Shown in pieces: positions 35,933 to 51,802 of a stretch of DNA of 64,000 nt. The position numbers were made by a program, and so were the translations under genes. The notes under the pieces are model-generated. The model saw nothing but the letters and a program-made list of their open reading frames with translations. It was not told where the DNA came from and ran no database searches. Origin of the DNA: Actinomadura sp. DC4 (GTDB taxonomy: Bacteria; Actinomycetota; Actinomycetes; Streptosporangiales; Streptosporangiaceae); assembly GCF_030406325.1 (NCBI RefSeq), contig NZ_JAUEQY010000017.1:1-64000 (forward strand). The letters run 5' to 3'. The first letter of the stretch is position 1. Each line of letters opens with the position of its first letter.

Positions 35933-36136
35933 ATGGCGCTCTCGATGGAAGAGGAGCGAATCCTCACAGAGATCGCATCTCAACTCGGCCAGGAGGACCC
36001 GGCCCTGGCCGGCCGCCTGGCGAACTTCGGCCGCCTGCGCAGGCGCCGGCGCATCCGCGCCATCGCGGCGGTCGTCGTCGCGATCCTCGTGATCGCCTCA
36101 CTGGTGGGAGCGGCGTTCGTCACGATCCCCACCTGA
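35933..36136 (+). CDS. DUF3040 small membrane protein
   Basis: A 67-residue protein beginning MALSMEEERILTEIASQLGQ, the typical DUF3040 start. An arginine-rich stretch (RLRRRRRIRAIAA) precedes one C-terminal transmembrane helix. TGGAGG precedes the ATG. DUF3040 proteins are widespread in actinobacteria and of unknown function. It is monocistronic, followed by a strong hairpin. Confidence 0.88.
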   Translation: MALSMEEERILTEIASQLGQEDPALAGRLANFGRLRRRRRIRAIAAVVVAILVIASLVGAAFVTIPT

Positions 36137-36147
36137 CAGACGTGAAC

Positions 36148-36175
36148 GTCCCCGCCGGACGAGTCCGGCGGGGAC
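36148..36175. terminator. Terminator after the DUF3040 gene
   Basis: A perfect 12-bp stem (GTCCCCGCCGGA / TCCGGCGGGGAC) with a CGAG loop, 11 bp after the stop. The remaining 240 bp to the sigma gene at 36414 show no further clear element. Confidence 0.8.
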
Positions 36176-36413
36176 GGCACGCCTGTGCCGGTGTGGTGGT
36201 CGCCTCGCGGCGAAGGCACAACGCGGCTCCTGCTCCGGCCGATGGCCGGCGGTATTCCACGAAGGCGATAGGTGCGGCCCGGGGACACATGCCACACCGG
36301 CACCCCCAGCGTAACTTGTTCCCCACCGTGGATATTCCAACGCCGCCCGTGTCGGCCTCTCACGTGCGCACCGGCCCCGCAACCGTACGGGGCCCCGCGG
36401 GGTTCTCATCTCC

Positions 36414-36980
36414 GTGACCGACACCGACATCCGTACCTCCGTCACCGCCAGGCTCGCCGAGGACCTCGACGCCGGGTTCGCCGAGCTGTTCGACGGCTAC
36501 CGCAACGTGGTGTTCTCCACCGCGCTGCGGCTGTGCGGGCGGTGGGCCGACGCGGAGGACCTCACCGCCGAGGCGTTCCTGCGCGCCTACCGGGCGCTGG
36601 CCGGCTACGACGCCGAACGGATCGCCGCGCTCAGTGTCCGGGCCTGGCTGCTGACGATCCTGACGAACCTGTGGCGCAACAGCGCGCGCTCGGCCGCCCG
36701 GCACCCGCCTCCGGCACCACTGGAGAACTCACCCGACCCCGTCGACCCCCGCGAGGGAGCCGAACAGGTCGCCGAACGGCACGAGACCGGCCGTGAGCTG
36801 GCCGCGCTGCTCGGCGAGCTCACCGACGAACAACGGCTCGCGGTCGTGCTCCGGCACGTCGCGGACCTGCCGATCGCCGACATCGCCACCGTGCTCGGCA
36901 GCCCGCAGGGCACGGTCAAATCCCACATCTCGCGGGGCCTCGGACGGCTCCGCCGGCTCTACGAGGGGGAGCGCCCATGA
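36414..36980 (+). CDS. ECF-type RNA polymerase sigma factor
   Basis: A 188-residue sigma-70-family factor. Region 2 at about 20-90 (AELFDGYRNVVFSTALRLCG, then WADAEDLTAEAFLRAYRALAGY). Region 4 at about 130-180 (LTDEQRLAVVLRHVADLPIADIATVLG, then GTVKSHISRGLGRLRRL). GTG at 36414 is the first credible start. No anti-sigma gene is adjacent; the stop overlaps the ATG of the Ogt-Ada gene, so they are cotranscribed and coupled. Confidence 0.88.
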   Translation: MTDTDIRTSVTARLAEDLDAGFAELFDGYRNVVFSTALRLCGRWADAEDLTAEAFLRAYRALAGYDAERIAALSVRAWLLTILTNLWRNSARSAARHPPPAPLENSPDPVDPREGAEQVAERHETGRELAALLGELTDEQRLAVVLRHVADLPIADIATVLGSPQGTVKSHISRGLGRLRRLYEGERP

Positions 36981-37741
36981 ACGGTCTCGAACAGGACCCG
37001 CTGGCCGAGGGCCTGGCGGCACTGTCCGTCGACGCCCCGCCGGGCCTGCTGGACCGGGTCGCCGCACGCTGGGTACGTGTCGAGGCCCCGATCGGCGACG
37101 TCTACGTCGCCTCCACCGACCACGGCATCGCCTACCTGCGGACCGGACCCGGCGAAGAGGACTTCACCGCCTCCTTCCGCCGCCGATTCGGCCGCCCGCT
37201 GCTGCCCGCCGACCGCCCGCCCGCCGGGCTCGTCCCGGCGCTGCGCACCGGCCGCACCGGCGACCTGCGGCTGGACCTGCGCGGGCTGAGCCCGTTCGAG
37301 GCCGACGTGCTGCAGGCGGCGCGGACCATCCCGCGCGGTGAGATGCGGCCCTACTCCTGGATCGCCCGGGAGATCGGCCGGCCCCGCGCGGTCCGCGCGG
37401 TCGGCACCGCGCTCGGCCACAACCCGGTGCCGCTGCTGATCCCCTGCCACCGGGTCATCCGCGCCGACGGCGGCATCGGCCAGTACGTCTTCGGCACCCC
37501 GGCCAAGGAGACGCTGCTGCGCGCCGAGAACGTCAACGTCGACGAGGTGGGCGCGCTCGCCGCCGGCAACGTCCACCTGATCGGCAGCGACACGACCGGC
37601 ATCGTGTGCCTGCCGAGCTGCCACAACGCCCGGCGGATCGCCCCGGCCCACCGCCGCGGCTTCCGCTCCATGGCGCTCGCCGCCGCGGCCGGCTACCGCC
37701 CGTGCCGGCACTGCCGTCCGGCCGCCGCGAACCGACCATGA
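36977..37741 (+). CDS. O6-methylguanine-DNA methyltransferase fused to a C-terminal Ada zinc domain
   Basis: A 254-residue fusion. The central part has the Ogt alkyl-acceptor motif: residue Cys157 in LIPCHRVIRADGGIG, with helix-hairpin DVLQAARTIPRGEMRPYSWI before it. The C-terminal region (about 195-250) has VCLPSC and PCRHCRP, the paired cysteines of the Ada N-terminal metal-binding domain, and an AdaA-like RRGFRSMALAAAAGY. This places the Ada zinc domain after, not before, the Ogt domain. It repairs alkylated DNA and may sense methylphosphotriesters. The gene is coupled to an ECF sigma factor, suggesting damage-responsive control. Confidence 0.85.
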   Translation: MNGLEQDPLAEGLAALSVDAPPGLLDRVAARWVRVEAPIGDVYVASTDHGIAYLRTGPGEEDFTASFRRRFGRPLLPADRPPAGLVPALRTGRTGDLRLDLRGLSPFEADVLQAARTIPRGEMRPYSWIAREIGRPRAVRAVGTALGHNPVPLLIPCHRVIRADGGIGQYVFGTPAKETLLRAENVNVDEVGALAAGNVHLIGSDTTGIVCLPSCHNARRIAPAHRRGFRSMALAAAAGYRPCRHCRPAAANRP

Positions 37742-37771
37742 CCACCCTCCGTTTGTAGTTGACTTCTCAGG

Positions 37772-38692
37772 GTGACAGTCGCTGAGCGTTTCACGGTACC
37801 GGCGTCGATCCTCATCGCCCTGACGGGCTGCCCGGGAGCGGCAGCGAGCGGGACGGAAGGCCCGCGCGCTCCCGTGGCGGTCCGGGCTCCGCTCAGCGCC
37901 GAGGTGCTCCGGGCGATGACCCGGGACCGGCTCTCGCCCGACGCCGCGGTCGCGGCCTACTGGACCGCCGGCCGGATGCGCGTGGCCGGCCGGCCGCCCG
38001 GCGGCGCGCCACCGGTGTCACGGCGGGCCGGGGCGCCGCTCGGGATCGCCGGCCGCACGGTGGGGAAGGTGTTCTTCCGCGACGCCGCCCACGGCCGGGA
38101 CTTCTCCTGCTCCGCCGCGGTGGTCGCCGGCCCGTCCATGAGCCTGCTCGCCACCGCGGGACACTGCGTGTACGACGCCGGCGGCACCTGGCACCAGAAC
38201 TGGATCTTCGTGCCGGCCTACGACCGGGGCCGGCGGCCGTACGGCGTCTGGCGAGCGACCTGGCTGGCCACCTTCACCGGCTGGACGGCGCGCAAGGAGC
38301 CCGACCTCGACGTGGCGTTCGTGAAGGTGGCGGCCATGGACGGCAGGCCACTGGCCGGGGTCGTCGGCGGCAACGGGATCCGCGGCGGGTTCTCGTCGCG
38401 GACCCGCCCGGTGACGGTCGTCGGCTATCCGTTCCTGCCGCCCTATCCCGGCGACCGGCAGTACCAGTGCCGGCGGGTCGCCGAGCCGGCGGGCCACCGG
38501 CTGCGGATGGCGTGCCCGCTCACCACCGGCGCCAGCGGGGGCCCGTGGCTGGACGGCTATGACCCGGCGACCGGCCGCGGCGACCTCGTCGGGGTGACCA
38601 CGAACACCGATCTGGCCAACACCACGCTGTGGAGCCCGCCGTTCGACGACGGGGTGCTGGCCCTCTCCCGCTGGGCCGACCGGCTCCCGTGA
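37772..38692 (+). CDS. Secreted trypsin-like serine protease
   Basis: A 306-residue exported protein. N-terminal hydrophobic segment ends in LTGC, which could be a lipobox. Catalytic residues are His131 in ATAGHCV, an Asp in DLDVAF, and Ser255 in GASGGPW. It has the V8/trypsin-like layout with a prosegment of about 90 residues. It converges on the lanthipeptide synthetase gene with 2 bp between stops. It might process exported precursor peptides, but that is only a positional inference. Confidence 0.88.
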   Translation: MTVAERFTVPASILIALTGCPGAAASGTEGPRAPVAVRAPLSAEVLRAMTRDRLSPDAAVAAYWTAGRMRVAGRPPGGAPPVSRRAGAPLGIAGRTVGKVFFRDAAHGRDFSCSAAVVAGPSMSLLATAGHCVYDAGGTWHQNWIFVPAYDRGRRPYGVWRATWLATFTGWTARKEPDLDVAFVKVAAMDGRPLAGVVGGNGIRGGFSSRTRPVTVVGYPFLPPYPGDRQYQCRRVAEPAGHRLRMACPLTTGASGGPWLDGYDPATGRGDLVGVTTNTDLANTTLWSPPFDDGVLALSRWADRLP

Positions 38693-38694
38693 CG

Positions 38695-41271
38695 TCAGAA
38701 CGCCACGGGGTCCAGCCACAGGCGCGGCGCGCCCGGGTCGCCGAGCCGGCGCAGGAAGGACAGCATGCCCGCCGTGCCGGTCGACCAGCCCCCGCTGCTG
38801 TCGTGAAGCGAGGTGTCGGGGAAGATCGGGGCGTCGGCCGGGCCCCCGGCCCTGGCGAGGAGCAGGTCGGCGACCCGGCGCGCCTGCAGCAGGTGCGCCT
38901 CGTCTCCCGTGGCGCGGGCGAGATCGAGGAAGAACTCCCCGATGCCCGCCAGCCCGCAGCACTGCGTCAGGGCGTACATCCGCGGCGCGAGGCCCCGGCA
39001 GGCCGTGGCGGCGTCGAGCGCCAGGTCCAGATGGCCGTCGTCGCCGAGTTCACGCGCGGCCCGTACGAGTGATGCCCCGATGCCCGCGAGCCCCTGGCAG
39101 AAGGAGGCGTGCATCGGCTTCGCCGAGGGGCACCGGGCGGCGTCGATCAACGGCGGCAGGTGCTGGGCGAGCAGGTCGCACCGCTTGCGCAGGGCGGGCT
39201 CGACATCCTCCCCCTCCGCGGCGGCGTGGTAGGCGGCCAGGAAGTGCACGACGCCGGCGAGGCCGTGCGAGAAGCCCAGAGTGCGCGACACCTGCGTGCA
39301 GTCGGCGTAGTCGAGCGGCTCCTCGGTCAGGCCGGCGGGGGAGTCGTCGGTGAGGAGCCGTCGCGCGCACTCCGCGGCGAGGTCCATGCGGCCGGCGTCA
39401 CCGGTGAGCCGCCACAGGAGCAACTGCCCGGTGCCGATGCCCGCCAGGCCGTTGTGCTGGTCGTCGGCGGTCACGCGGGAGAGCACCGGGCGGGCCATCG
39501 GCCCGGCGAGAGACGTCAGGACCTCGTCGTCCAGCGCGGCGCCGGCCGCGGCGACGAACACCGCGATGCCGGTGTCGCCGGTGTAGAACGCGGGGCGGCC
39601 GCGGCGCAGGGTCCGCAGCCCGTTGGTCCAGTAGGCCAGGGCCCGCGCCAGGTCGCGTGCCGGTCCGTCGCCCTCGTGGTGGAGCAGTTCCATGCCCATG
39701 CCGGCGCTGCCGCGGTAAAGGTTGACGGGGCTGGCGACGATGCCGCCGGTGAGGTCCGCGCCGGCCATGAGCCGTGTGGCGTGCCGAGACACCTCGGCGA
39801 CGCTGTGGCCGACCGCGGCGCGGTGCGTTCGCCCGCCGGGGGCGGCCGGCGCGGGTACGGAGGAGCCACGGCCGGAGCGGATGGCGTCGGCCGCCCCGCG
39901 CCGCTCCGCGGGGTCGGCGGCCAGCAGTCCGAGGATCGCGCCGGTGATACCGCCGCGCCCGTCCAGCACGGCGGCCGCGCGTCCGGTGTCGTGGTTGTGC
40001 GGGTCTCCGGTGAGCCAGGTCGGCGGCACGCCCGTGGCGGCGTAGAACAGCGTGGCGCCCAGGGAGAAGTAGTCGGCCTCGACGGTGCCCGGCTCGTCGC
40101 GCTCCTGCTCGGGCGGGCTGTAGCCGGGGGTCCAGCCGAACAGCTGGGCGTCCCCGGCGTGGCTGATCTCGAAGTCGACCAGGCAGGGACGGCCCGTGGC
40201 GTCGTCGAGGACGACGTTGGTCGGGTTGACGTCGCGCACCAGCACGCCCCGCTCGTGCACCCGGTCGAGGAGCTCCAGCAACGTGCCGGCCAGCCGGGGA
40301 AGGCTCCGCGACGCCGGGTCGGCGGTGTAGAGCCCGTTCTCGGCGACGTCGCGGCCGAGCGCCAGCGCGCCCATGTCGGTGATGGCGAGGTATTCGCGGT
40401 CCTCGTGCCGGAAGTGGTCGACCATCGCCGGAACCCCGTCGAGGCCGGACAGCCTCTCCAGGACGTATCGCTCGTTGCGCAGCCGTGCCCGTGAGTCGCG
40501 CCCTCGTGAGTCCTCGTTGACGAAGGCCCGCGCCTCCTTGACGATCACCTGGCGCTGCTCGGCGGTGTCGAGCGCCCGGTACACGACGCCCTTGCCGTTG
40601 CGGGTCAGGGCCCGCTCCACCTGGTAGCGCCCGCCGAGCATGACCGCCGCGGCGCCGGGCTCCGCCCGTACGGGCCGGCGCTCGGCGGCGAAGGGGTCGG
40701 GCAGCCACGGAGGCTGCCAGTACGACTCGTTCGCGGCGCCCGGCAGCGTCCTGCCCTCCGGGTCGGTGACCACGAGCTCGAAGTCGCCGTCGTCGTTGTC
40801 GTCGTACACCGGCCGAAAGGGCCCGTACCGGTAGTAGACGGGTGCGTCCGGGTGGACGCGCCGGTCGCTGTACACGCGGGGCGCCTCCAATCCGGCGAGG
40901 TCGGCGGCGAGCCTGCGGGCGAGCTCCACGACGTCCCCGTGTCCGGCGTAGACCGTCATCGCCTTACCGATCGCGCCGGGATGGTTGTTGGAGGAGTTGA
41001 GGTCGCGCAGCAGTCGGCCGGACCGGACGACCTTGAAATGACAGGGGATGGACAGCAGCGTGGGCAGACTCCGCCGCATCGTCTCCATCAGCGTCGCGGG
41101 ACGCGCGGCCAGATGGATCTTCCAGCCTTGTACGGGGAACGGGAACGCCGGATCCTCCACGACCAGCCACGTGCCGTTCGGGTAGTGCACCCGGGTGTTC
41201 CCGGCGAGCTGTTCGGCCAGTGCGGCACGGACAGCCTTCTCCTCGGGCCCGAGGGTGGTTTGGTTAGCCAT
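38695..41271 (-). CDS. Class III/IV-type lanthipeptide synthetase (LanKC-like)
   Basis: An 858-residue three-domain enzyme. Residues 1-200 form the phosphothreonine/serine lyase-like domain (APVYYRYGPFRPVYDDNDD). Residues about 215-480 are a Ser/Thr kinase with RDVNPTN (Asp347) and DFEIS in place of DFG. Residues about 500-858 are a LanC-like cyclase with FSHGLAG (His669), FCQGLAG (Cys725) and QCCGLAGIG (Cys771, Cys772), positions that bind zinc in LanC and LanL. Classical LanKC cyclases lack these, so this enzyme mixes class III-like front domains with a putative zinc site. Its substrate is probably the 51-residue peptide encoded just upstream. Confidence 0.85.
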   Translation of the reverse strand: MANQTTLGPEEKAVRAALAEQLAGNTRVHYPNGTWLVVEDPAFPFPVQGWKIHLAARPATLMETMRRSLPTLLSIPCHFKVVRSGRLLRDLNSSNNHPGAIGKAMTVYAGHGDVVELARRLAADLAGLEAPRVYSDRRVHPDAPVYYRYGPFRPVYDDNDDGDFELVVTDPEGRTLPGAANESYWQPPWLPDPFAAERRPVRAEPGAAAVMLGGRYQVERALTRNGKGVVYRALDTAEQRQVIVKEARAFVNEDSRGRDSRARLRNERYVLERLSGLDGVPAMVDHFRHEDREYLAITDMGALALGRDVAENGLYTADPASRSLPRLAGTLLELLDRVHERGVLVRDVNPTNVVLDDATGRPCLVDFEISHAGDAQLFGWTPGYSPPEQERDEPGTVEADYFSLGATLFYAATGVPPTWLTGDPHNHDTGRAAAVLDGRGGITGAILGLLAADPAERRGAADAIRSGRGSSVPAPAAPGGRTHRAAVGHSVAEVSRHATRLMAGADLTGGIVASPVNLYRGSAGMGMELLHHEGDGPARDLARALAYWTNGLRTLRRGRPAFYTGDTGIAVFVAAAGAALDDEVLTSLAGPMARPVLSRVTADDQHNGLAGIGTGQLLLWRLTGDAGRMDLAAECARRLLTDDSPAGLTEEPLDYADCTQVSRTLGFSHGLAGVVHFLAAYHAAAEGEDVEPALRKRCDLLAQHLPPLIDAARCPSAKPMHASFCQGLAGIGASLVRAARELGDDGHLDLALDAATACRGLAPRMYALTQCCGLAGIGEFFLDLARATGDEAHLLQARRVADLLLARAGGPADAPIFPDTSLHDSSGGWSTGTAGMLSFLRRLGDPGAPRLWLDPVAF

Positions 41272-41333
41272 TTCGCCGGCCTTCCGCTCGATCTACTCAC
41301 CGGCCCGTACGGCCGCCGGCCTCGTTGAATGCC

Positions 41334-41364
41334 CGAGGGGCCATCAACGGTCGATGGCCCCTCG
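41334..41364. terminator. Hairpin between precursor and synthetase genes
   Basis: A perfect 12-bp stem (CGAGGGGCCATC / GATGGCCCCTCG) with a 7-base loop, between the precursor stop (41417) and the synthetase start (41271). It is probably a partial terminator that lets the small precursor be made in excess of the enzyme. It lies downstream of one gene and upstream of the other on the same strand. Confidence 0.65.
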
Positions 41365-41416
41365 GCCGCCCGGCGGTCAGCGCATGCTCACCATGGGCGT
41401 TGGTGCGGTTGTCAGG

Positions 41417-41572
41417 TCAGGCCTGGGTGCTGAAGTCGTCACACAGCAGGGTCCGACCCCAGTGACACACCGTGCAGCTGCCGGCCTGGATCTGGGGGAC
41501 ATCCGACGGGACGCCGGCCAGGGACTCCGGCTGGATCGCGCCCGCGTCGCGCGGTTCGGTCAGAGTGAGCAC
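41417..41572 (-). CDS. Candidate lanthipeptide precursor peptide
   Basis: A 51-residue peptide. N-terminal leader-like part: MLTLTEPRDAGAIQPESLAG, continuing VPSDVPQIQAG. Core-like C-terminal part: SCTVCHWGRTLLCDDFSTQA with Cys33, Cys36 and Cys44 and Ser/Thr at 32, 34, 41, 48 and 49 to form thioether rings. The GTG start at 41572 has AGGAGG upstream. It is directly upstream of the synthetase gene (145 bp to its start), on the same strand. I recognise no named lanthipeptide. It could be a non-coding leader, but the Cys pattern and position argue for a precursor. Confidence 0.75.
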   Translation of the reverse strand: MLTLTEPRDAGAIQPESLAGVPSDVPQIQAGSCTVCHWGRTLLCDDFSTQA

Positions 41573-41709
41573 ATCTCCTCCTAGTGCGATTACCGTACGT
41601 TACACTACAACTACAGATAGTAAGCAGGATGGCATCGGATGTCTACCCTGCGTCATCTTCAGCGGAAGAAAGCACCCGTGAGGCGATCACAGAGAGTGAC
41701 GGAGACCGA
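41573..41709. promoter_or_regulatory. Divergent promoter region of the lanthipeptide locus
   Basis: Markedly AT-richer than its surroundings (TACACTACAACTACAGATAG at 41603-41622). It lies between the precursor gene (minus) and the exporter genes (plus), so it likely holds both promoters. No dedicated regulator gene is adjacent. TTAC and GTAA flank the central stretch as a weak dyad. Confidence 0.4.
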
Positions 41710-42714
41710 ATGGCCGTACGTTCCCGGCACAGCGACGGCCGGTCCGCCACCGGCACCGATGAGCCCCTCGCCTCGGTGCCGGTCATCCAGGCGCGCGACC
41801 TTGCCAAGTCCTATCCGGAAGGCCCCGCCGTACGCGGGGTCGACCTGACCGTCCCGGCCGGTCAGACCTTCGGTTTCCTCGGCCCCAACGGAGCCGGGAA
41901 GACCACGACCATCGCGATGCTGTGCACGCTGACGGCGCCGTCCGCCGGGCGGGCCTGGGTCGCCGGTCACGACGTGGTCGCCGACGCGCACCGGGTGCGG
42001 CGCCAGATCGGCCTGGTCTTCCAGGACACCACCCTCGACCAGGGGCTCACCGCCTGGGAGAATCTCCGTTTCCACGCCCGCCTCCACGGCGTTCCGGCGG
42101 CCGACGCCCGGACCCGCGCGCGCGACCTGCTGGACCTGGCCGGGCTGAGCCGGCGGCGCGACTCTTTGGTCGGCACCTTCTCCGGCGGCATGAAACGGCG
42201 CCTGGAGATCGTGCGCGGGCTGATGCACCGGCCCCGGGTGCTGTTCCTGGACGAGCCGACCATCGGCCTCGACCCGCAGACGCGCGCCCAGATCTGGCAC
42301 CACCTGCACGAGCTACGGCGCCGGGAGCGGGTCACCCTCTTCCTGACGACGCACTACCTCGACGAGGCCGAGCACTGCGACCGCATCGCCATCATCGACG
42401 ACGGCCGGATCATCGCCGAGGGCACCCCCGCCGAGCTCAAGACCGTCATCGGCGCGGACCGCGTCGAGCTCCGGTCGAGCGACGACCGGGCCGCCGCCGC
42501 GCAGTTGCGCGACCGGTTCGGCCTGCACGCCACCGAGGGCGAGGGCTCGCTGCGGGTACGCGTCGAGGACGGCGCCGCCTTCGTGCCGCGCATGTGCGCG
42601 GCCCTCACCGTCGCGATCCGGTCGGTCACCGTCGTACGGCCGAGCCTCGACGACGTGTTCTTCCACTACACCGGCCGCACCATCCGCGAGACCGACCAGG
42701 GAGCCAGGCGATGA
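41710..42714 (+). CDS. Lanthipeptide-locus ABC exporter ATPase
   Basis: A 334-residue ATPase: Walker A GPNGAGKTTT, signature FSGGMKRRLEIVRG, Walker B VLFLDEPTIGLDP, switch FLTTHYLDEAEHC, and a C-terminal SLDDVFFHYTGRTIRE. ATG at 41710 has GGAG five bases before it; an earlier in-frame start would include a non-conserved N-terminus. ATGA overlap with the permease gene. Probably exports the lanthipeptide or confers self-protection. It is a close paralogue of the ATPase at 12608-13588. Confidence 0.93.
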   Translation: MAVRSRHSDGRSATGTDEPLASVPVIQARDLAKSYPEGPAVRGVDLTVPAGQTFGFLGPNGAGKTTTIAMLCTLTAPSAGRAWVAGHDVVADAHRVRRQIGLVFQDTTLDQGLTAWENLRFHARLHGVPAADARTRARDLLDLAGLSRRRDSLVGTFSGGMKRRLEIVRGLMHRPRVLFLDEPTIGLDPQTRAQIWHHLHELRRRERVTLFLTTHYLDEAEHCDRIAIIDDGRIIAEGTPAELKTVIGADRVELRSSDDRAAAAQLRDRFGLHATEGEGSLRVRVEDGAAFVPRMCAALTVAIRSVTVVRPSLDDVFFHYTGRTIRETDQGARR

Positions 42715-43544
42715 GCACATCGGCACCCGCCGCCCGGCGGCTCACCGGCGAACTGTCGGCCCTGCTCGTCATCTGGCAGCGCGACATGCTGCACTACCGC
42801 CGTGACCGCCTGAAGATCCTGGTCACGGTGCTCCAGCCGGTCATGATGCTCACGGTCCTGGGCGCGGGCCTGGCCTCGCTGCTGCCCGCCACCGGAGGCG
42901 CCGACTACCGCACCTTCCTGTTCCCCGGCATGCTGATGATGACGATCCAGGCGCCGGCCATCTCGGCCGGCGTCTCGCTGGTGACCGACCGGCAGTCGGG
43001 CTTCCTGCGGGAGATCACCCTGGCGCCCGTACGGCGGGAGACCGTGCTGGTCGGCCGGTGCCTGGGCGGCGCGAGCATCGCCACCTGCCAGGGCGCCCTG
43101 CTCCTGCCGCTGGCAGGCATCGCCGAACTGCCCTACGACCCGGTCACGCTCGCCCTGCTGCTCGGCGAAACGGTGATCATCGCCTTCATGATGACGGCGC
43201 TGGGCGTGCTGCTCGCCATCGCGATCAGCCGCACCGAGTCCTTCTACGCCGTGCTCAGCATCATCACGATGCCGCTGATCTTCTTGTCCGGGGCGATGTT
43301 CCCGGTCAAGGACCTGCCGGGCTGGCTGTTCTCGGCGGTCCTGCTCAACCCCGTGAGCTACGCCGTCGACGCGCTCCGCCGGACGATCACCGCCCGCCTG
43401 CCGGGCCCGGTGCCCGCGGCGCTGTTCGACGGGCCGCACTGGGGCGGCTGGCATCCGCCCGTTCTCCTCGAACTGGCCGGCATCGCCCTGACCGGTGCCA
43501 CGATGCTCGCCTGGGCGGGGCGCCGCTTCGGGCGTGCCTCGTGA
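42711..43544 (+). CDS. Lanthipeptide-locus ABC-2 permease
   Basis: A 277-residue membrane protein with about six helices: IWQRDMLHYRRDRLKILVTV at the N-terminus, GFLREITLAPVRRETVLVGR in the middle, MPLIFLSGAMFPVKDLPGWL after. The ATG at 42711 overlaps the ATPase stop. The same family as the permease at 13592-14461. It pairs with the ATPase to form the exporter. Confidence 0.92.
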   Translation: MSTSAPAARRLTGELSALLVIWQRDMLHYRRDRLKILVTVLQPVMMLTVLGAGLASLLPATGGADYRTFLFPGMLMMTIQAPAISAGVSLVTDRQSGFLREITLAPVRRETVLVGRCLGGASIATCQGALLLPLAGIAELPYDPVTLALLLGETVIIAFMMTALGVLLAIAISRTESFYAVLSIITMPLIFLSGAMFPVKDLPGWLFSAVLLNPVSYAVDALRRTITARLPGPVPAALFDGPHWGGWHPPVLLELAGIALTGATMLAWAGRRFGRAS

Positions 43545-43582
43545 CCTGCTGATTTGCCGACCTGCCGGATCGCGTTGAGCCG

Positions 43583-44899
43583 GTGTTCAGGATCATCGTG
43601 TTGACTGTATCGGTCACCCGCCGTCGAAACCCAAGGTCCTCCGCCTTGACCACCACCGCCTCGGCCATCACGACAACGACCGTTACGGGCCCGGCCGCCA
43701 CCGCGCCCGCACCGCCACCCGCCGGGTCCCGCGACCCCTACTTCGACAACGCGAAATTCCTCGCGGTCGTCCTCGTCGTCATCGGCCACGCCTGGGAGCC
43801 GCTGCGCGCCCAGAACGTCGGCGGCCGGGTGCTGGAGGCCGCGCAGACCTTCGTCTACGCCTTCCATCTGCCGGTCTTCATCGTCATGTGCGGCTACTTC
43901 TCCCGCGGCTTCACGGCCGGCCGCGACCGTACGCGCAAGCTCGTCGCGGCGATCATCGTCCCGTACGTCATCTTCAGCGTGGCCTACCCGCTGTGGGCCG
44001 GGCTGCTCGCGGGGAACCACGTCGGCTGGGACCCTCTCGAGCCGTACTACCTGACCTGGTTCATGCCCGCCCTGCTGCTGTGGCGGCTGTCCACGCCGCT
44101 GTGGCAGCAACTGCGCTACCCGATCACGGCGGCTCTGGTGATCTCGATGATCGCGGGGTTCGTCACCCTGCCGAGCATGCTGAACGCCGCGCAGGTGCTG
44201 TCGTTCCTGCCGTTCTTCGTCATCGGGCTCACCCTGCGCCCCCACCACTTCGCGTTCCTGCGGCGCCGCGCGATGCGAGCCGCCGGCGCGGCGCTGCTGG
44301 TGGCCGGCGGCGGTGCCGCGTACGCGGCCGCGCTCACCGTCGACCCCGAGTGGGTGCACTGGCGGCGCAGCTTCGTCCAGCTCGGCGTCGGCGAACCGGC
44401 CGGCGTGGGCTTCCGGCTGATCGCACTCGGCGCGGCGGTGGCGCTGACCGTGGGGTTCCTGGCGGTCGTGCCCGGCCGCCGCACGTGGTTCACGCGGTTC
44501 GGCTCGGCGAGCATGTACGTCTACCTGCTGCACGGTTTCGTGACGCTCTTCCTGTCCTACCAGGGCTGGTACTACCGGGTCAGCGGCCCGGAGGTCGTGC
44601 TGGTCACCGTGGGCTGCGGGGCGCTGGCGGTCGTGCTGTCCAGCGGCGCCGTACGAGGGGCGTTCCGCTGGGCGGTCGAGCCGCGCATGGACTGGCTGTT
44701 CCAGCCCAGGACGCCGGCCGTCGTCTCAACGCGCGTTGTGAAAAATGACGCCGAGCACGTGCCGGCTGCCGGACCGGACCTCGCTCACGCCGTGCCGCAT
44801 CGCGACCCGCCGGAACCCCCGCGCGCCGGGCACCGGACGGTGCCGCACCGGGAAGACCAGCCCCTGGCCGACCCCCGGCCGGGCGACGACCGGCCGTGA
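43583..44899 (+). CDS. Membrane acyltransferase family 3 protein
   Basis: A 438-residue protein with about ten transmembrane helices of the acyltransferase-3 family. Catalytic His is in VVIGHAWEP near residue 69 and the characteristic AFHLPVFIVMCGYFSRGF follows. The start is uncertain: GTG at 43583, or TTG at 43647 just before the conserved part. The C-terminal 60 residues, from VVKNDAEHVP on, are Pro/His-rich, cover the 2OG-oxygenase gene in antisense, and do not look like family sequence. It could acylate a sugar or the lanthipeptide. Confidence 0.82.
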   Translation: MFRIIVLTVSVTRRRNPRSSALTTTASAITTTTVTGPAATAPAPPPAGSRDPYFDNAKFLAVVLVVIGHAWEPLRAQNVGGRVLEAAQTFVYAFHLPVFIVMCGYFSRGFTAGRDRTRKLVAAIIVPYVIFSVAYPLWAGLLAGNHVGWDPLEPYYLTWFMPALLLWRLSTPLWQQLRYPITAALVISMIAGFVTLPSMLNAAQVLSFLPFFVIGLTLRPHHFAFLRRRAMRAAGAALLVAGGGAAYAAALTVDPEWVHWRRSFVQLGVGEPAGVGFRLIALGAAVALTVGFLAVVPGRRTWFTRFGSASMYVYLLHGFVTLFLSYQGWYYRVSGPEVVLVTVGCGALAVVLSSGAVRGAFRWAVEPRMDWLFQPRTPAVVSTRVVKNDAEHVPAAGPDLAHAVPHRDPPEPPRAGHRTVPHREDQPLADPRPGDDRP

Positions 44900-45457
44900 C
44901 TGCTGCCGGGGCCGCTGCTCCACGAAAACGCTCTCGCCGCCGGTGAAGTCGGCGTCGGGCACGCTGAGCATGAACGCCACCTGCAGCGGGAACGTCACCT
45001 CGCCGTAGACGTCCTGGTGCAGGCAGTTGTGACCACCGGGCCCGTACCTCAGCAGCAGGGGCGTCGGCCGGTGCTGACCCGCTGCGGCGCAGCGTTCCCG
45101 CAGGTCATCGAGGCGCTCGGGGAACGCCGGCTCGCCCAGCCGGGCGGCCCAGCGGTTCGCGATGCGCGCCAGCGGCGGGTACAGGGCCTCCCGCAGCTCT
45201 CCTACGGGGTCCGGGAGCGGGTCGGCGAAATAGCGGTAGGAGCCCTCGCCGAACGCGTGCCGGGCCATCACGATCGTGCTGCGGAACAGCTCGTCCCGGT
45301 CGTAGAGCGCGATGAGCTCGGCGCAGCGCTCGGGCGTCAGGAGCGGCTGGGTCACCGCGATCCCGGTGCGGTCGAGCTCGGCCTCCAGCCTCGCCCAGTC
45401 CGGGCCGGTCTCGGCGATCTCGCCGGTCTCGTCGGTGAGGATCATCTGCTCGGTCAT
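44726..45457 (-). CDS. 2-oxoglutarate/Fe(II)-dependent oxygenase
   Basis: A 243-residue non-haem iron oxygenase of the prolyl-4-hydroxylase-like fold. CLHQDVYGEVTFPLQVAF carries HxD, and MRHGVSEVRSGSRHVLGVIF carries the distal His and the Arg that binds 2-oxoglutarate. ATG at 45457 has GGGGAG upstream. The gene overlaps the acyltransferase tail by 174 bp on the opposite strand. It is near the lanthipeptide genes and could hydroxylate a peptide residue, but its substrate is unknown. Confidence 0.85.
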   Translation of the reverse strand: MTEQMILTDETGEIAETGPDWARLEAELDRTGIAVTQPLLTPERCAELIALYDRDELFRSTIVMARHAFGEGSYRYFADPLPDPVGELREALYPPLARIANRWAARLGEPAFPERLDDLRERCAAAGQHRPTPLLLRYGPGGHNCLHQDVYGEVTFPLQVAFMLSVPDADFTGGESVFVEQRPRQQSRPVVARPGVGQGLVFPVRHRPVPGARGFRRVAMRHGVSEVRSGSRHVLGVIFHNAR

Positions 45458-45492
45458 GCGTCTCCCCCTGTCGGCTGAAGTCGTCCTCCTGG

Positions 45493-45524
45493 GGAACACC
45501 GGCCGGGCTCAGAGGGTTGCGCGG
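45493..45524. repeat. Left copy of a 32-bp direct repeat
   Basis: Identical over 32 bp to 48596-48627, beginning GGAACACCGGCCGGGCTCAG. Weaker similarity extends about 25 bp further left (CTGTCGGC at 45468). It contains the stop codon of the toxin-like gene (45509-45511). Confidence 0.9.
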
Positions 45525-47932
45525 TCGGCTGGACCCGGCGACCCGGCCCAGGCCACGGCGACATTGACACAGAACTCACCGTCGCTGCGGCGAGGGTATC
45601 TCCAGCGCAGGCCGGCGGAATCGGTCACTGCGTTCGCCTGATCCCTGTGGGCGACGCGGAGTCCCACGCCGGCCTGCGCGCCCCCTAGCGCACCGACCGC
45701 CCGGTCGCCGGCCGGCCGCACCTGCTCGGAGACGAGCCGGAAACCGCGTCCCACGCCTGTAATGAAGGCTTCGGCGACGATCGATGCTCTTCCGCCGAGT
45801 GCGAGCCTGAGCTCATAGGAGCTCAGCCGGTCGTGGACGTAGCGGACGAGGCTCTCATCCGCGACCGGTCGGCGACCGCGGTCACGAAGCGCCTGGTTCA
45901 CCCGATCCACCGTGAACGCCAGTTTCTCGCGGTCGAGCGGTATCGGTGCGGGGAGACTCTCCTCCCTGCGCGGGTATCGCTGTTGCGGGCCTCCGAGATC
46001 GTCATAAAGCTCTCGCAAATATGCGCTCTCGTGAGGAAGTTCCTGGTCGTAGGGCCTCCCGAACACCAGCCCCGAAAAATACTCGGCCACGAACTCGTGC
46101 GGGCTTTTCCCGTTTCCTGCATAGTGACTGATTCGTTCTATCCAGGAGCTCTTCGCCGGGTCGATCAGTGCGGTACGACTCAGGTCGACGATGGAGAACT
46201 CGTCGGCGAGATGGTGACCGAGCTCGTGCACGATGAGCGCCACTTCCACCTCTTCGAAGTGGCCGGCCAGCTGCCGTGCCGCTCCGGGGCGATGCCGCAG
46301 AGACTCTATCTCTCCGATTATCAGGCTGTTGACGCCTTCGTAGTAGGCCGCACCGACCGACGGAAAGCCGTAGATTGCGATCTCGGTGATGTCCAGCGTG
46401 GGAGGACGTCCCGGCCGGACCGGGGGCGTGCTGCCGATGGTCAGCCATCGTGTGTACTTGGGCAGCCACACCTCAAGATCCGGCACCTCGAACCCCGCGG
46501 CCTGGACATGGTCGACCGCTCGCCGCACCCACCCGATCCGTCTGTCCACCACGGGCTGAGGGGTGGTCGGATCGTAATGTACGGCGATTTGTGTTCCGCC
46601 GGCGGTAAGGGTGCGCGTCGCGAAGGCGGGCGTTCCTTCCTCACCTCGATGATTAAGGTCCCGGTCGGTGCTCCGATCCTGGCGATTCAGATAAATGTTT
46701 TCTATCTCGGGATATCTGTGCCTTACCGAATCCGTCATGAGTTCGCGCACGACGTCATCGGGCAGGTCGGATGCCACACCGGCCCGCGTTTTGATGGCCG
46801 TGACCTGCCTGTCCCTGTCCTCCCGTGCGATGACGGCATTCCTACTCAGCATTTGCTGGACGTCGCGAGCGGCGAAATTCTGCTGATGAGCGGTCAGGGA
46901 CCCGGAGGCGGTGAGCCGGTAGAGATGTTTGGCCAGGGACGGCGCGAGGTCGTAGTAGCGCCCACGTCGTGCGCGCTCGGCCGCGTCGGGCGGGAGGGTG
47001 TCGACTCCCCACCAACCGGGGCCTCGCCCCGGACGGGGATCACGGGCAGGCCTGCCGAGAACGCCCGGGCCCGGCTCCGGGGTGGCGCCGATGTGGGAGG
47101 TGGCCTTGTCGGTGAGCGCCTCGACGATCGACCCGCCGGCCAGCGTCCGGAGGGGTTCGCTGGTCACCGGTTGTGCGGTGGTCAGATCGATGTGCAGGGC
47201 ACGGGCGTCGGCGACGGGACCGAGGGGGCTGTTCAGCGGGTCGGTCATGGCGGGGGTGAGGTCTTTGAGCACGGCGGTGTGGCCGTCGTAGTCGAGGACC
47301 TTGACGCCCTGGGTCGTGTTGATGAGCACGAGGGCGTGGCCGACCGTGGAGCGGCCGACGATGACGGTCGTGGCGGTGTTCTCGCGCTCGACCGTCTCGA
47401 CCACGGCTCTCCAGGACCGGACTCGTTCCCAGCTTCCGGGCTGGTTCAGCCGGCGCCGCGCGCTCGGATCCGCCGAGGCCGCCGCGTCATCGACCCATCG
47501 CACCCCCGCCGGCGGTTTGACGCCTTGGCGGAAGACCCCGGCCAGGACCGCTTCGGCGAACTCCAGGCAACGCCCGGCGACGTCGGGGACACGATTGCGC
47601 TCGACCTGACCGGTCGCATACGACAGCACCTGGAGCAGCTGGTCGTCCGCGTCGGCCGCCGGACCGCCCATCTGGGCCGGCGGCTGATAGGGAAGGCCGT
47701 TTTCCCGGCCGGTGGCCCGGCCCCGGGGCCCGACCGCGCGCAACGCCTTGGCCTTGACGCTCAGGCCGGCGTCGGGGTTTCGCGGCAACGGCACGTACCG
47801 CACCCGGCCATCGTCACCGACGGCCGGCATGTACACGGCGGCTTCCACACACGCGGCGACGCTGTGGCCGGAGGCCCGCCAATCAACCACCGGGACCGCC
47901 ACCGGCCCGGCGCCCACGCCTGATCCCGACAC
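45509..47932 (-). CDS. Large toxin-like protein with papain-like and metallopeptidase domains
   Basis: An 807-residue protein without a signal peptide. After a conserved N-terminus (HSVAACVEAAVYMPAVG), residues about 115-220 look like a papain-fold toxin domain: Cys122 in RCLEFAEAVL, His199 in GHALVLIN, Asp214 in VKVLDYDG. Residues about 475-660 contain a zinc metallopeptidase: HELGHH (569-574) with downstream PHEFVAEYFSGL (Glu617), similar in layout to anthrax lethal-factor-like toxin domains. GTG at 47932 has AGGGG upstream; TTG at 47947 is the alternative. Base composition is visibly lower in GC than the neighbours. The last few codons lie in the direct repeat. No immunity gene is recognised. 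Confidence 0.75.
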   Translation of the reverse strand: MSGSGVGAGPVAVPVVDWRASGHSVAACVEAAVYMPAVGDDGRVRYVPLPRNPDAGLSVKAKALRAVGPRGRATGRENGLPYQPPAQMGGPAADADDQLLQVLSYATGQVERNRVPDVAGRCLEFAEAVLAGVFRQGVKPPAGVRWVDDAAASADPSARRRLNQPGSWERVRSWRAVVETVERENTATTVIVGRSTVGHALVLINTTQGVKVLDYDGHTAVLKDLTPAMTDPLNSPLGPVADARALHIDLTTAQPVTSEPLRTLAGGSIVEALTDKATSHIGATPEPGPGVLGRPARDPRPGRGPGWWGVDTLPPDAAERARRGRYYDLAPSLAKHLYRLTASGSLTAHQQNFAARDVQQMLSRNAVIAREDRDRQVTAIKTRAGVASDLPDDVVRELMTDSVRHRYPEIENIYLNRQDRSTDRDLNHRGEEGTPAFATRTLTAGGTQIAVHYDPTTPQPVVDRRIGWVRRAVDHVQAAGFEVPDLEVWLPKYTRWLTIGSTPPVRPGRPPTLDITEIAIYGFPSVGAAYYEGVNSLIIGEIESLRHRPGAARQLAGHFEEVEVALIVHELGHHLADEFSIVDLSRTALIDPAKSSWIERISHYAGNGKSPHEFVAEYFSGLVFGRPYDQELPHESAYLRELYDDLGGPQQRYPRREESLPAPIPLDREKLAFTVDRVNQALRDRGRRPVADESLVRYVHDRLSSYELRLALGGRASIVAEAFITGVGRGFRLVSEQVRPAGDRAVGALGGAQAGVGLRVAHRDQANAVTDSAGLRWRYPRRSDGEFCVNVAVAWAGSPGPADRATL

Positions 47933-48089
47933 CAACCCGCCCCTCAATACCGTGTCCCGGACGCCCCCAGTCTGCCTAACTCAGGGAGAAATCGGTGCCC
48001 CCTTTCGAGGCGAACCGGGAGCCGTTCGTACTCGCGTACGGAACGGCGGGGTCGTGGACGGACGGCGGGCCGGAGCCGGCGTTCGTGAG

Positions 48090-48270
48090 GGGACCGTCCT
48101 GCAGGACCTCACCGGCCAACCCGAGATCCTCACCTCGCTCGGCGTCGCCGAGGACCGGATCTACCTCGACAAGCGACCGGCCGGTACCAGCGATACCAGC
48201 CTGCGCTCGGCCGGCCCTGGCCGCCGTACGCGCCGGCGACACCCTCGTGGTCGCGAGGCTCGACCGCTCG
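48090..48270 (+). pseudogene. Decayed serine recombinase (resolvase) remnant
   Basis: Parts of a resolvase/invertase N-terminal catalytic domain are readable in two frames: ILTSLGVAEDRIYLDKRPAGTS in one, then ALAAVRAGDTLVVARLDRS in another about 30 bases later. The pattern (LTxLGVxxDRIYxDxGLTGT ... ALAAxRAGDTLVVxKLDRLARS) is standard for this family. A frameshift near 48200-48215 and loss of the catalytic Ser segment and DNA-binding domain make it nonfunctional. Confidence 0.78.
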
Positions 48271-48379
48271 AACCCGTGCGCGTACGGGCGAGACCGAGGT
48301 CGCCGCGGGCGGGACCAGCAGGTACGCGTACAGGCTCGGTATCGCGATGGGCCGATCACGTCGTCGTCCCAGCGGCCCA

Positions 48380-48484
48380 GCGCGATCACCGCGCGTACCG
48401 GCGGTCGGTGGTGGCCCTCGACCGCGGCGCGGGCCTCCTCGTGCAGGGCCGGGCCGTTCTGCGGGACGACCGGCCGGCCGCCGG
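48380..48484 (+). pseudogene. Displaced copy of the 15.5-kb dehydrogenase/deaminase junction
   Basis: This stretch closely matches 15487-15587: it repeats the CGCGATCACC just before the dehydrogenase gene, the short gap, and the 3' end of the deaminase gene (QNGPALHEEARAAVEGHH on the minus strand, compared with QEGPALHEEARAAVEGYY). It ends abruptly at about 48484, and the deaminase active site is not present. The sequence from 48271 to 48379 shows nothing recognisable. Confidence 0.8.
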
Positions 48485-48580
48485 GTCGGCGACACCCGGG
48501 GCGCCGGGCGGAAGCATCTACGGCCTCCCTGCCCACACCCGATGACCTTTGGGCCAGGGCCGCCGGGAAGCCTCTGTCGG

Positions 48581-48605
48581 CCGGTGTTCCCCCGAGGAAC
48601 ACCGG
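48581..48605. terminator. Hairpin terminator of the NERD gene
   Basis: CCGGTGTTCC and GGAACACCGG pair perfectly across a 5-base CCCGA loop, 24 bp beyond the NERD gene stop. Its right arm is the start of the 32-bp direct repeat; the left copy of the repeat at 45493 lacks the left arm. Confidence 0.75.
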
Positions 48606-48627
48606 CCGGGCTCAGAGGGTTGCGCGG
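48596..48627. repeat. Right copy of the 32-bp direct repeat
   Basis: Identical to 45493-45524. It ends 1 bp before the NERD stop codon at 48629-48631. The two copies bound a 3.07-kb segment with the toxin-like gene, the recombinase remnant and the displaced junction. Confidence 0.9.
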
Positions 48628-48628
48628 G

Positions 48629-49384
48629 TCAGCGGACGATGAGGGCCTGGCGGCTGATGGGCAGGGAGTGCGCGGCCTCGTAGATGGCCGCGATCTCTTC
48701 GGGCGTGTAGCGGATCCGCCGGTTGCGGATCCAGTGGGGGAGACGGTGGGCCCGCAGCATCGTGATGCCCTCGGCGCTCACCCTGCCGCGCCGGAGGTCG
48801 CCGCCGTACACGACGAGCACCGGTTCGACGGGTACCTCGCCGTCGAGCCGCTTGCCCAGCATTTCGGCGGCCAGACGGGCGGTCTCGCGAAATTCGGCGG
48901 CCATCTTCTTACCCGGCCGTTCATCGACATATAGTGTGCCGCCGTATTCGGCTATTTCGGTCTCCGGCGGTACGGCCCGATTCTCGATGAGGAGCACGCC
49001 GGTACTCCCGATCACCAAATGGTCGAGCTGACCGCGCCCGGGGATGTTCCGGCCGTGCAGCACGCGGAATCCGCGCGGCTCGACGAACGCCCGCAGGATG
49101 CGTGCCGTACGGCGCTCGCCCCGCTGTCCCTTGCGCCACACGCTCTCGGCCGCGCGCTTGCGCCAGTGCCACAGAGCGTCGGCGCCCGCGGCCACCAGCG
49201 CCAGCAGCAGTCCCCACCACAACGACAGCACCCAGGTGCCGATGACCAGGGCCGCGGCGGCGATCGCGCCTCGGACCTGCAGCCGCCGGCGCAGGCCCTG
49301 CGCCCACAGCTGCTCGTGGATGGACTGCGGGGACCCGCCGACGAACGCGGGGTTGTCGGCAACGTAGATCGACTTACCTATCAT
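48629..49384 (-). CDS. NERD-domain membrane protein
   Basis: A 251-residue protein. Two hydrophobic segments (about residues 38-75, AAAALVIGTWVLSLWWGLLL) precede a nuclease-related NERD domain: KGQRGERRTARILRAFVEPR, then VLHGRNIPGRGQLDHLVIGSTGVLLIEN, then YGGTLYVDERPGKK. ATG at 49384 is chosen over the upstream ORF extension, which is AT-rich and non-conserved. NERD domains are inferred endonuclease-like; its cellular role here is unknown. It flanks the toxin island. Confidence 0.85.
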   Translation of the reverse strand: MIGKSIYVADNPAFVGGSPQSIHEQLWAQGLRRRLQVRGAIAAAALVIGTWVLSLWWGLLLALVAAGADALWHWRKRAAESVWRKGQRGERRTARILRAFVEPRGFRVLHGRNIPGRGQLDHLVIGSTGVLLIENRAVPPETEIAEYGGTLYVDERPGKKMAAEFRETARLAAEMLGKRLDGEVPVEPVLVVYGGDLRRGRVSAEGITMLRAHRLPHWIRNRRIRYTPEEIAAIYEAAHSLPISRQALIVR

Positions 49385-49633
49385 TTTTCGAAGCCTTTCC
49401 GCGATACCGCCTTCATTGTTACCGGCAACGCGGAAAACTGCACTAGCAGGTAAGGAAGTTAGCTCCGGAATGTCAATCTTGCAGAATGTGTAATGCATCC
49501 GTTGATAAAACTTTCACTGCAAGGTACCGGACGGTACGAACGAGTCGCCCGAGGCTCCCGTGCAGCGGTGGCCGACCATGTCGGCAGCCGGTTGAACGGC
49601 CGACGATGTGTCACGCCCGGGCCGGATGGGCGG
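49385..49633. other. AT-richer intergenic region, no gene seen
   Basis: Contains the NERD promoter region and a stretch (49490-49520) with TGATAAAACTTTCACTGC that is unusually AT-rich for this genome. The minus-strand frame of the NERD gene stays open into it for about 38 codons (HYTFCKIDIPELTSLPASAV), but I do not call it coding. No RNA gene was recognised. Confidence 0.4.
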
Positions 49634-50278
49634 TCACGGGCCCGGGGCGACGGCGAGCACACAGGCGACCGGCGGGTCGAGGTCGAGGGTCCTGACGCTG
49701 AGCTGGGCGAAGCCGACCTGAGTGAGCAGGTCCTGGAGCTCTCGGGCGGCCCGGGCGGTGGTGTCCTCGGTGGCTCCGGGGCAGCGGGGCTGGCTGACGA
49801 GCGCGATGCGTCCTCCGGGGCGAAGCAGGCGGCGCAGCTCGCGAAGCCGCTCCACCGGGTCCGGCCAGAATCCCAGGGAGTTGACGGCGAGGATGACGTC
49901 GAGCGGGTCGCCGAAGTCCGGCAACCGTTCCACGGAGGACTGCGTGAGGTGTACGCGGCGGGCACGCACGGCGGCGGCGTTGCGCCGGGCGGCATGCCGG
50001 ACCATGGCCTGGGAGTGGTCGACGCCGAAGACGTGGCCCCGGGTGGCGCGGCCGGCGAACGCGGCGATGGCGACGCCGGGACCGAAGCCGATCTCGAGCA
50101 CCCGGTCGGTGGGCCGCACGTCCAGCAACGACACCGCCCAGATGTTCCGCTGCCGGTTGGAGGGGCGGAGGGCGAACATCCAGCCGTTCGCCCACCCGAC
50201 GACGCCCTGAGGGTGATGGGCCTGGCGCACCAGATATCCGATCACGCGTTGCTTGAGGGCCGTACCCGCTGTCTGCAT
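49634..50278 (-). CDS. Class I SAM-dependent methyltransferase
   Basis: A 214-residue methyltransferase. VLEIGFGPGVAIAAFAG is motif I (SAM-binding GxGxG-like), HVFGVDHSQAMVRHAARRN the acidic loop, and PLDVILAVNSLGFWPD motif II. It methylates an unknown small molecule. It is divergent from the MerR regulator at 50317, with a perfect dyad between their start sites, so MerR probably controls it. Confidence 0.9.
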   Translation of the reverse strand: MQTAGTALKQRVIGYLVRQAHHPQGVVGWANGWMFALRPSNRQRNIWAVSLLDVRPTDRVLEIGFGPGVAIAAFAGRATRGHVFGVDHSQAMVRHAARRNAAAVRARRVHLTQSSVERLPDFGDPLDVILAVNSLGFWPDPVERLRELRRLLRPGGRIALVSQPRCPGATEDTTARAARELQDLLTQVGFAQLSVRTLDLDPPVACVLAVAPGP

Positions 50279-50294
50279 GATCGTCAGTGAACGG

Positions 50295-50312
50295 CTTCAA
50301 GTACGCTTGAAG
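50295..50312. promoter_or_regulatory. MerR-family operator
   Basis: CTTCAAG-TACG-CTTGAAG is a perfect 7-bp inverted repeat with a 4-bp centre, between the divergent methyltransferase (start 50278) and MerR (start 50317) genes. MerR proteins bind such dyads within the spacer of target promoters. Confidence 0.7.
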
Positions 50313-50316
50313 TCAA

Positions 50317-50754
50317 ATGGATGATCAGTTGACGATCGGTGAGCTGGCGAGCCGCACCGGTGTCGCCACCTCCGCGCTGCGCTATTGGGAGGAGATCGGC
50401 CTGCTCCCCGCGCCCGCGCGGGTCTCCGGCCACCGGCGTTATCCGCCGTCGGCGATCCGGCTGGTCGGGGTGGTGCTGTTGCTGCGCGACGTCGGCTTCA
50501 CGCTGCGCGAGGTCACGACCTTCATCGGACCGCGGTCGCCGGCCGGGGACGGCCGGCGGGAGCTGTACCAGCGAAAACTCACCGAGCTGGACCAGCGGAT
50601 CGCGCAGGCGCAGGTGGCGCGCACGGCCATCGCCCACGGCCTGGCCTGCCCGCACGAGGACATCTTCGAATGTTCCAACTTCGCCGGCGGGGTCGCGGCG
50701 TTCCTGGCGGGAGCTTCTCTCGAAGAGGCGCACGATCAGATCCACGCGAGCTGA
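50317..50754 (+). CDS. MerR-family regulator with C-terminal cysteines
   Basis: A 145-residue regulator. The N-terminal HTH is LTIGELASRTGVATSALRYWEEIGLLP with the wing RVSGHRRYPPSAIR. A coiled-coil dimerisation helix follows. The end carries CPHEDIFECSN, with two Cys that could bind metal or an FeS cluster in a SoxR-like manner, though the spacing differs from SoxR. It likely regulates the divergent methyltransferase. Confidence 0.9.
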   Translation: MDDQLTIGELASRTGVATSALRYWEEIGLLPAPARVSGHRRYPPSAIRLVGVVLLLRDVGFTLREVTTFIGPRSPAGDGRRELYQRKLTELDQRIAQAQVARTAIAHGLACPHEDIFECSNFAGGVAAFLAGASLEEAHDQIHAS

Positions 50755-50765
50755 GCCGCCAGAGA

Positions 50766-50778
50766 GCCCGCTGCGGGC
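50766..50778. terminator. GCCCGC-T-GCGGGC hairpin after the MerR gene
   Basis: A 6-bp inverted repeat with a one-base centre, 12 bp after the MerR stop. An inverted sister copy, CCCGCAGCGGG, occurs near 50859-50871 in the same 187-bp gap. Confidence 0.4.
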
Positions 50779-50886
50779 CCAGGCCTATGTTGTCGCGCTG
50801 CACGGCCGCACCCGCGGGTGCTGCGAAGCCGCCAGCCAATCGGGCGAGAGGTTGCGCCCGCAGCGGGATGCTCTTTGGTGTGCCGA

Positions 50887-50904
50887 GCGGCCCCCCGGGG
50901 CCGC
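50887..50904. terminator. GC-rich hairpin between convergent genes
   Basis: GCGGCCCC-CC-GGGGCCGC is a perfect 8-bp stem followed on the plus strand by CATTTCTCTCTTT. It lies between the convergent MerR gene and alpha/beta hydrolase gene. Confidence 0.6.
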
Positions 50905-50941
50905 AAGGCACATTTCTCTCTTTACCCGCTGATACCGCAAG

Positions 50942-51724: not shown

Positions 51725-51802
51725 GCATCGACATTAAACCTAAGTTACTGGCCAGTCACCGTGATGGCGGTCACCCTGGACCGCCCGGAAGGAAGGTCGT
51801 AG

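Follow-up and report, generated by a model that had tools for sequence, protein, structure and literature searches.

A precursor gene ahead of a class IV synthetase gene

The window (the whole 64,000-nucleotide stretch of Actinomadura sp. DC4 that was analysed) carries lanA at 41417–41572 on the minus strand (read from 41572 to 41417), interpreted as encoding a 51-aa class IV lanthipeptide precursor with GTG as its first codon. The peptide terminates in SCTVCHWGRTLLCDDFSTQA, and EPRDAG lies near the N-terminus of its leader; as a guess, we place the leader/core boundary so that the core covers approximately residues 32–51 (SCTVCHWGRTLLCDDFSTQA). A ribosome binding site, AGGAGG (41577–41582, minus strand), stands 4 nt before the GTG, and the stop codon is followed after 145 nt by the ATG of lanL, both genes lying on the minus strand. 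The preliminary description had reported a 51-residue peptide at these coordinates, with three Cys and five Ser/Thr in its last 20 residues, a ribosome site and a position directly upstream of a synthetase gene in the same orientation. All of this is borne out by translation and mapping, with the frame on the minus strand; the plus strand of the same interval does not encode the peptide. No family in NCBIfam or Pfam matches the peptide at an E-value of 1.

The synthetase gene lanL (38695–41271, minus strand) encodes an 858-aa class IV enzyme with lyase, kinase and cyclase regions, the last with a CCG motif. Its product scores above the cut-off of the class IV model NF038150 (762.9 against 650 bits) and below that of the class III model (323.5 against 575 bits), and it contains the Pfam domains PF25816, PF00069 and PF05147 (RamC-N, kinase and LanC). 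It carries FCQG and QCCG motifs, which we take to be the zinc ligand sites of the LanC cyclase. The window enzyme falls in a low-scoring clade of 41 LanLs, every one of which has CCG at the cyclase zinc site; the other 49 aligned LanLs have CHG at this site with a single exception (L085). The window genome also encodes another class IV synthetase, which is CHG-type (L075, G000:C98:109263-111842), as well as four proteins more distantly related to the window LanL, including G000:C45:3723-6215.

Divergent from lanA on the plus strand lie a drrA-like ABC transporter ATPase gene (41710–42714; TIGR01188, 329 bits, cut-off 312.45), for which homology points to the in-frame ATG at 41710 as start rather than the GTG at 41584, and a drrB-like ABC-2 permease gene (42711–43544, plus strand; PF01061). 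This DrrAB-like pair is probably an exporter. Convergent with lanL is a gene for a trypsin-like serine protease (37772–38692, plus strand; PF13365; PDB 3cp7, E = 4.8e-27), probably secreted, as its N-terminus looks signal-like by eye, and a candidate leader peptidase. A hairpin (GGCCGAGGGGCCATCG...TTGATGGCCCCTCGGGC; 41331–41367, minus strand) separates lanA from lanL. Further genes encode an acyltransferase (43583–44899), a 2OG-Fe(II) oxygenase of family PF09859 (44726–45499, minus strand) and a protein at 45509–47947.

Conservation of the precursor across genomes

Searching the peptide against 100 relatives recovered the window itself and one 80% identical copy from a member of its genus (G003), plus two weak matches that both contain internal stops. 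A search for class IV synthetases, in which two candidates were scored per genome, gave matches at an E-value of 1e-150 in at least 121 of 341 genomes of the family. The stretches compared comprised 40 of the 42 listed matches below 830 bits (the window itself and G375:C93 were left out), together with 19 higher-scoring lanL matches and 30 further high-scoring loci. Scanning small frames near lanL at 45 of these loci located the precursor at L041, L037 (two in tandem), L040, L039 and L043. A DNA pattern of the core, run on one genome per species for 84,980 species (a collection that may omit the window genome and among whose matches the L037 copies are absent), matched six stretches, every one from Actinomadura or Actinoallomurus; four repeat loci named above, and two are new, L100 in A. 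livida and L097 in A. xylanilytica. The conserved homologues that the preliminary description had suggested seeking beside related synthetases are thus found in six other genomes, where the precursor adjoins a related lanL (L041, L037, L040, L039, L043 and L100). The L097 copy has no lanL nearby.

An alignment of the nine copies shows no change at 13 of the 21 positions in the core region and at 11 of the 29 in the leader, and GGAGG precedes the gene at approximately the same position in all eight copies other than the window's. The third codon position is the most variable in 8/8 comparisons with window lanA. Codons with a changed residue outnumber silently changed codons in each of these comparisons (10 against 9 for the nearest copy, L041); the leader is therefore free to change. 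The region 36000–52000 contains 129 frames of at least 40 aa, and GC-rich DNA of this kind could present lanA as a chance open frame, but sequence, start, ribosome site and position are all kept across genomes. We rule the chance frame out because of this conservation, and consider its probability practically nil. On the comparative sequence evidence lanA is a real gene, and what it encodes is very probably the precursor of a natural product with rings.

Homology with curvocidin

A phmmer search of solved structures aligned the window LanL with 8car (1295.9 bits, residues 8–857) and the lanA peptide with the CuvA chain of 8cav, a chain of 51 residues (E = 2.1e-17, residues 2–50). These structures represent the curvocidin pair CuvA/CuvL (PDB 8car and 8cav; Angew. 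Chem. 2023). CuvA and the window peptide are both 51 aa long, with an EPRDAG leader and a core of the form CTVCHWGxTxLCDDFST, sharing 15 of 20 core residues and differing at five; CuvL and the window LanL are both class IV enzymes with a CCG cyclase motif and are 69% identical. The LanL of L037 is letter-identical to 8car across chain residues 2–865, and the same cassette surrounds lanL there as in the window. One of its tandem precursors equals CuvA save for three leader residues, and the core of the other (SCTVCHWGRTVLCDDFSTQA) agrees with that of window lanA at 19 of 20 positions. We take the source of the 8car and 8cav proteins to be Thermomonospora curvata.

Close homology to CuvA and the single core difference at L037 therefore make the window peptide a member of the curvocidin kind. 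In all likelihood lanA encodes the precursor of a curvocidin-type class IV lanthipeptide; judged by its sequence it is an added close homologue of a known kind, not a new kind. The earlier proposal of a lanthipeptide precursor ahead of its own synthetase was right, given a lanL that passes the class IV model and a peptide homologous to CuvA. Its companion claim, of a core unlike any known lanthipeptide, fails against the CuvA match and the L037 core, and since the core has a known relative in curvocidin, the novel rings then predicted are not expected. By analogy, the window product would be expected to bear curvocidin's rings. The alternative of a novel ring pattern, with no kinship to known lanthipeptides, would agree with the failure of every family model to name the peptide, and with a literature search in which no open-access paper printed the letters CTVCHWG or EPRDAG. 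Such a pattern is nevertheless very improbable for a peptide with a homologue in CuvA over residues 2–50 and a near-identical core beside an 8car-identical LanL. A further search of open-access papers returned nothing for 8CAR/8CAV together with lanthipeptide; class IV lanthipeptides are treated in PMC7268733, PMC12328550 and PMC9576775.

Relatives in a neighbouring clade share the EPRDAG leader and a CCG-type LanL, and one of them scores 26.1 bits against the SflA-family model NF038148, whose cut-off is 25. The SflA-family core (HGPQACVNTCKRTVCSSFPCCPSIV) is unlike the window core, and SflA membership of the window peptide was rejected, NF038148 giving no match at an E-value of 1.

The conserved cassette and its hairpin

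We compared the cassette over 16 stretches and searched 20 stretches, each 8 to 17 kb long, by tblastn with nine proteins of the window (E 1e-8). The drrA-like and drrB-like genes accompany all six curvocidin-type relatives (L041, L037, L040, L039, L043 and L100) and also occur beside the cinnamycin-like loci L035, L036, L038 and L044. The serine protease is present in five of the six relatives, and His/Asp/Ser motifs, assigned by eye, are found in 6/6 aligned proteases, the window's included; stretches with cinnamycin-like cores gave no protease match. By these comparisons the precursor and synthetase genes form a conserved cassette with the exporter, the hairpin and, in all relatives but one, the protease. 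The exception is A. livida, in which no protease match was obtained over a stretch as long as 16 kb (L145). The A. livida lanL (L100, L145) is also without approximately 262 residues in frame (430–691 in window numbering), a gap that spans the kinase end and the cyclase start; gap and missing protease reflect either decay or an assembly fault.

The acyltransferase, the oxygenase and the 45509–47947 protein each lack a match in any of the 20 related stretches at an E-value of 1e-8, the 8 kb stretches among them being perhaps too short to reach these genes, and we excluded all three from the system because they are unmatched. For the same reason the oxygenase was rejected as a CinX-like Asp hydroxylase partner.

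A strong hairpin between lanA and lanL occurs in seven lanL-linked loci including the window, in eight copies (two in L037). In an alignment of these eight rows, from which L097 (unlinked, with a different hairpin) was left out, 98.1% of 104 cells are paired, against 29.8 to 51.9% in slid versions. Four of 13 pairs have changes on both sides, a count reached by 11 of 500 shuffles; the number of further pair types is no higher than in shuffles (459/500 reach it). The hairpin is probably a partial terminator or an mRNA stabiliser, and we infer that it would lower lanL relative to lanA, such that precursor outnumbers synthetase.

The solved relative and known LanL biochemistry together suggest how the cassette would operate. 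LanL would bind the EPRDAG leader, phosphorylate Ser/Thr of the core and then eliminate phosphate, after which its zinc cyclase would couple each of the three Cys to a dehydrated residue. Export of the peptide would fall to the DrrAB-type transporter, and the serine protease (37772–38692) would cut off the leader.

Sister loci with cinnamycin-like cores

A LanL tree of 38 rows chosen out of 90 groups the window with five other curvocidin-type rows (support 100/100). Sister to this group is L067 (99/96), whose precursor has a cinnamycin-like core, and next out are L035, L036, L038 and L044 with L058 (98/95). The precursors of L035, L036, L038 and L044 carry cinnamycin-like cores; for L058 a precursor was sought in its stretch and none was found. 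Class IV precursors with cinnamycin-like cores stand upstream of lanL at L035, L038, L044, L067 and L118 (for example, CRNTCVSGFTIRCDGYSL), and presumably all five cores have lost both lysinoalanine partner positions. The residue order of cinnamycin and duramycin, C..(S/T)..C..G..T..C-D, is present in the sister class IV cores and, loosely, in the window core. Cinnamycin and duramycin (NF033431, PF19398) belong to class II and have a leader that differs from that of the window; the synthetase of their family is a class II LanM, in place of which the window cassette has a class IV LanL. Unlike in the cinnamycin family, no hydroxylase is conserved beside window-type lanL in the 20 stretches compared.

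The L038 peptide falls below the cut-off of the cinnamycin model NF033431 (E = 9.5e-7, 29.4 bits, cut-off 35) and just passes PF19398 (26.8 bits, cut-off 26.6); the window peptide matches neither at an E-value of 1. Among 394 genomes of the class, NF033431 gave six matches at an E-value of 0.01: four above the cut-off, which are true cinnamycin-type precursors, a class IV precursor in G181 (27.6 bits) and one more with an internal stop. We scored cores on a profile of four true cinnamycin cores and compared each with 2000 Cys-fixed shuffles of itself. Scores as high came from 0 to 2 shuffles for the five sister cores and from none for L071, from 58 for the window core, from 8 to 78 for the eight other curvocidin-type cores and from 147 to 350 for four SflA-like cores; L072 and L074 gave no score. 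The cinnamycin likeness is, on this profile, good for the sister group and weak for the window core. On the LanL tree the curvocidin clade falls among lanLs with cinnamycin-like cores, a label that needs two changes. The curvocidin core may therefore derive from a cinnamycin-like one, or cinnamycin-like cores arose twice; we prefer the derivation. The precursors of L119 and L121 have two successive cinnamycin-like cores, ACVSTCVSGFTI(K/R)CDG...TCVTGATLRCDG.

Possible ring patterns

Our guess for the window core is the cinnamycin topology, with Cys2 joined to Thr18 or Ser17, Thr3 to Cys13 and Cys5 to Thr10. The ring positions are those that we take cinnamycin to have, and its Ser6 and Lys19 we assume to be the lysinoalanine partners; because their equivalents here are His and Gln/Ala, the guess includes no lysinoalanine bridge. 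Given the weak shuffle support for the window core, it rests mostly on descent. The L036 core has Pro in place of the Thr4 ring partner, which speaks against a strict keeping of the topology, and in L128, a copy with no start codon, Tyr replaces the middle Cys.

The T-x-x-C spacing is nearly constant and would fit a Thr10–Cys13 ring too. The core could accordingly be only partly cyclised, with rings Thr10–Cys13 and Ser1–Cys5 (N-to-C direction) and Cys2 free or oxidised: among the curvocidin-type, cinnamycin-like and unlinked cores T-x-x-C is absent only from the short L123 and L124, and all nine copies have Ser or Thr at position 1. That arrangement would leave one of the three Cys and the Ser17–Thr18 pair unexplained, all of them invariant in 9/9, and true cinnamycin-type precursors also keep T-x-x-C, to our knowledge with no Thr–Cys ring between those residues. 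Curvocidin, moreover, is reportedly tricyclic. We regard partial cyclisation as possible but doubtful. A peptide that is not simply a lanthipeptide, its CxxCH (CTVCH) binding metal or haem, is extremely improbable and was set aside as a main reading. C-x-x-C-H does recur in 9/9 aligned copies, and weak cytochrome c matches (E = 0.33 and 0.36) cover it, but the dedicated neighbouring LanL would use these Cys, L127 is without the His and L128 without one Cys, and no gene of the conserved cassette handles haem.

Precursors unlinked to a synthetase gene

A profile of 14 precursors, searched in 341 genomes at an E-value of 1e-3 with 20 candidates scored per genome, marked at least 26 places, its own 14 rows included, in at least 19 genomes. 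Actinomadura sp. J1-007 (G338) has at least five and A. xylanilytica (G337) at least three; the window genome has one at this threshold among the 20 of 136 candidates scored. All 12 new places lie in 14 stretches of approximately 16 kb that we compared. Eight of these contain lanL; the other six (L132–L135 in G338, L136–L137 in G337) have none at an E-value of 1e-10 within approximately 7.8 kb or more on each side. In the four unlinked precursors of G338 the leader is retained and the core differs between copies (TCTRCTHGGYTILCSDYSTRA and ICTHCGGDYTIMCEDTSTRF, for instance), and five of the six unlinked precursors have an ATG or GTG start preceded by GGAG or GGAGG. The sixth, L136 (= L128), which has no in-frame start codon and the Cys-to-Tyr change described above, looks decayed. 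When every candidate was scored, a single curvocidin-type LanL emerged in each of G338 and G337 (63 and 64% identical to that of the window), and the remaining matches in the two genomes reach 37% identity or less, which suggests that a single LanL serves scattered, unlinked precursors in trans.

Prochlorosins likewise come from several unlinked precursors with a kept leader and a varied core that share one synthetase, and the CCG cyclase motif is ProcM-type. J1-007 and A. xylanilytica resemble this arrangement; prochlorosins are class II, whereas the curvocidin-type system is class IV and has few copies. Unlinked class IV precursors are not mentioned in the passages concerned of PMC12328550 and PMC9576775. 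It is conceivable, though less likely than not, that curvocidin-type LanLs build peptides of cinnamycin topology and, in some hosts, modify several scattered precursors in the manner of prochlorosins, which would make them class IV counterparts of both class II systems. If LanL does serve scattered substrates, window lanA would be the single-substrate form.

Taken alone, window lanA is one more close curvocidin homologue; the greater importance lies with its relatives. Should class IV enzymes make cinnamycin-shaped peptides, with a leader and an enzyme unrelated to those of the cinnamycin family, this scaffold either arose twice or passed from one class to another. Mining confined to the few genes around a synthetase would overlook class IV products whose precursors are unlinked. 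Two further precursors, L123 (G309) and L124 (G313; wider stretches L142 and L143), lie beside LanLs of 54–55% identity, and their cores, with no Ser/Thr beyond the first Cys, end in GCAICRCGAA or GCAICRRAAA.
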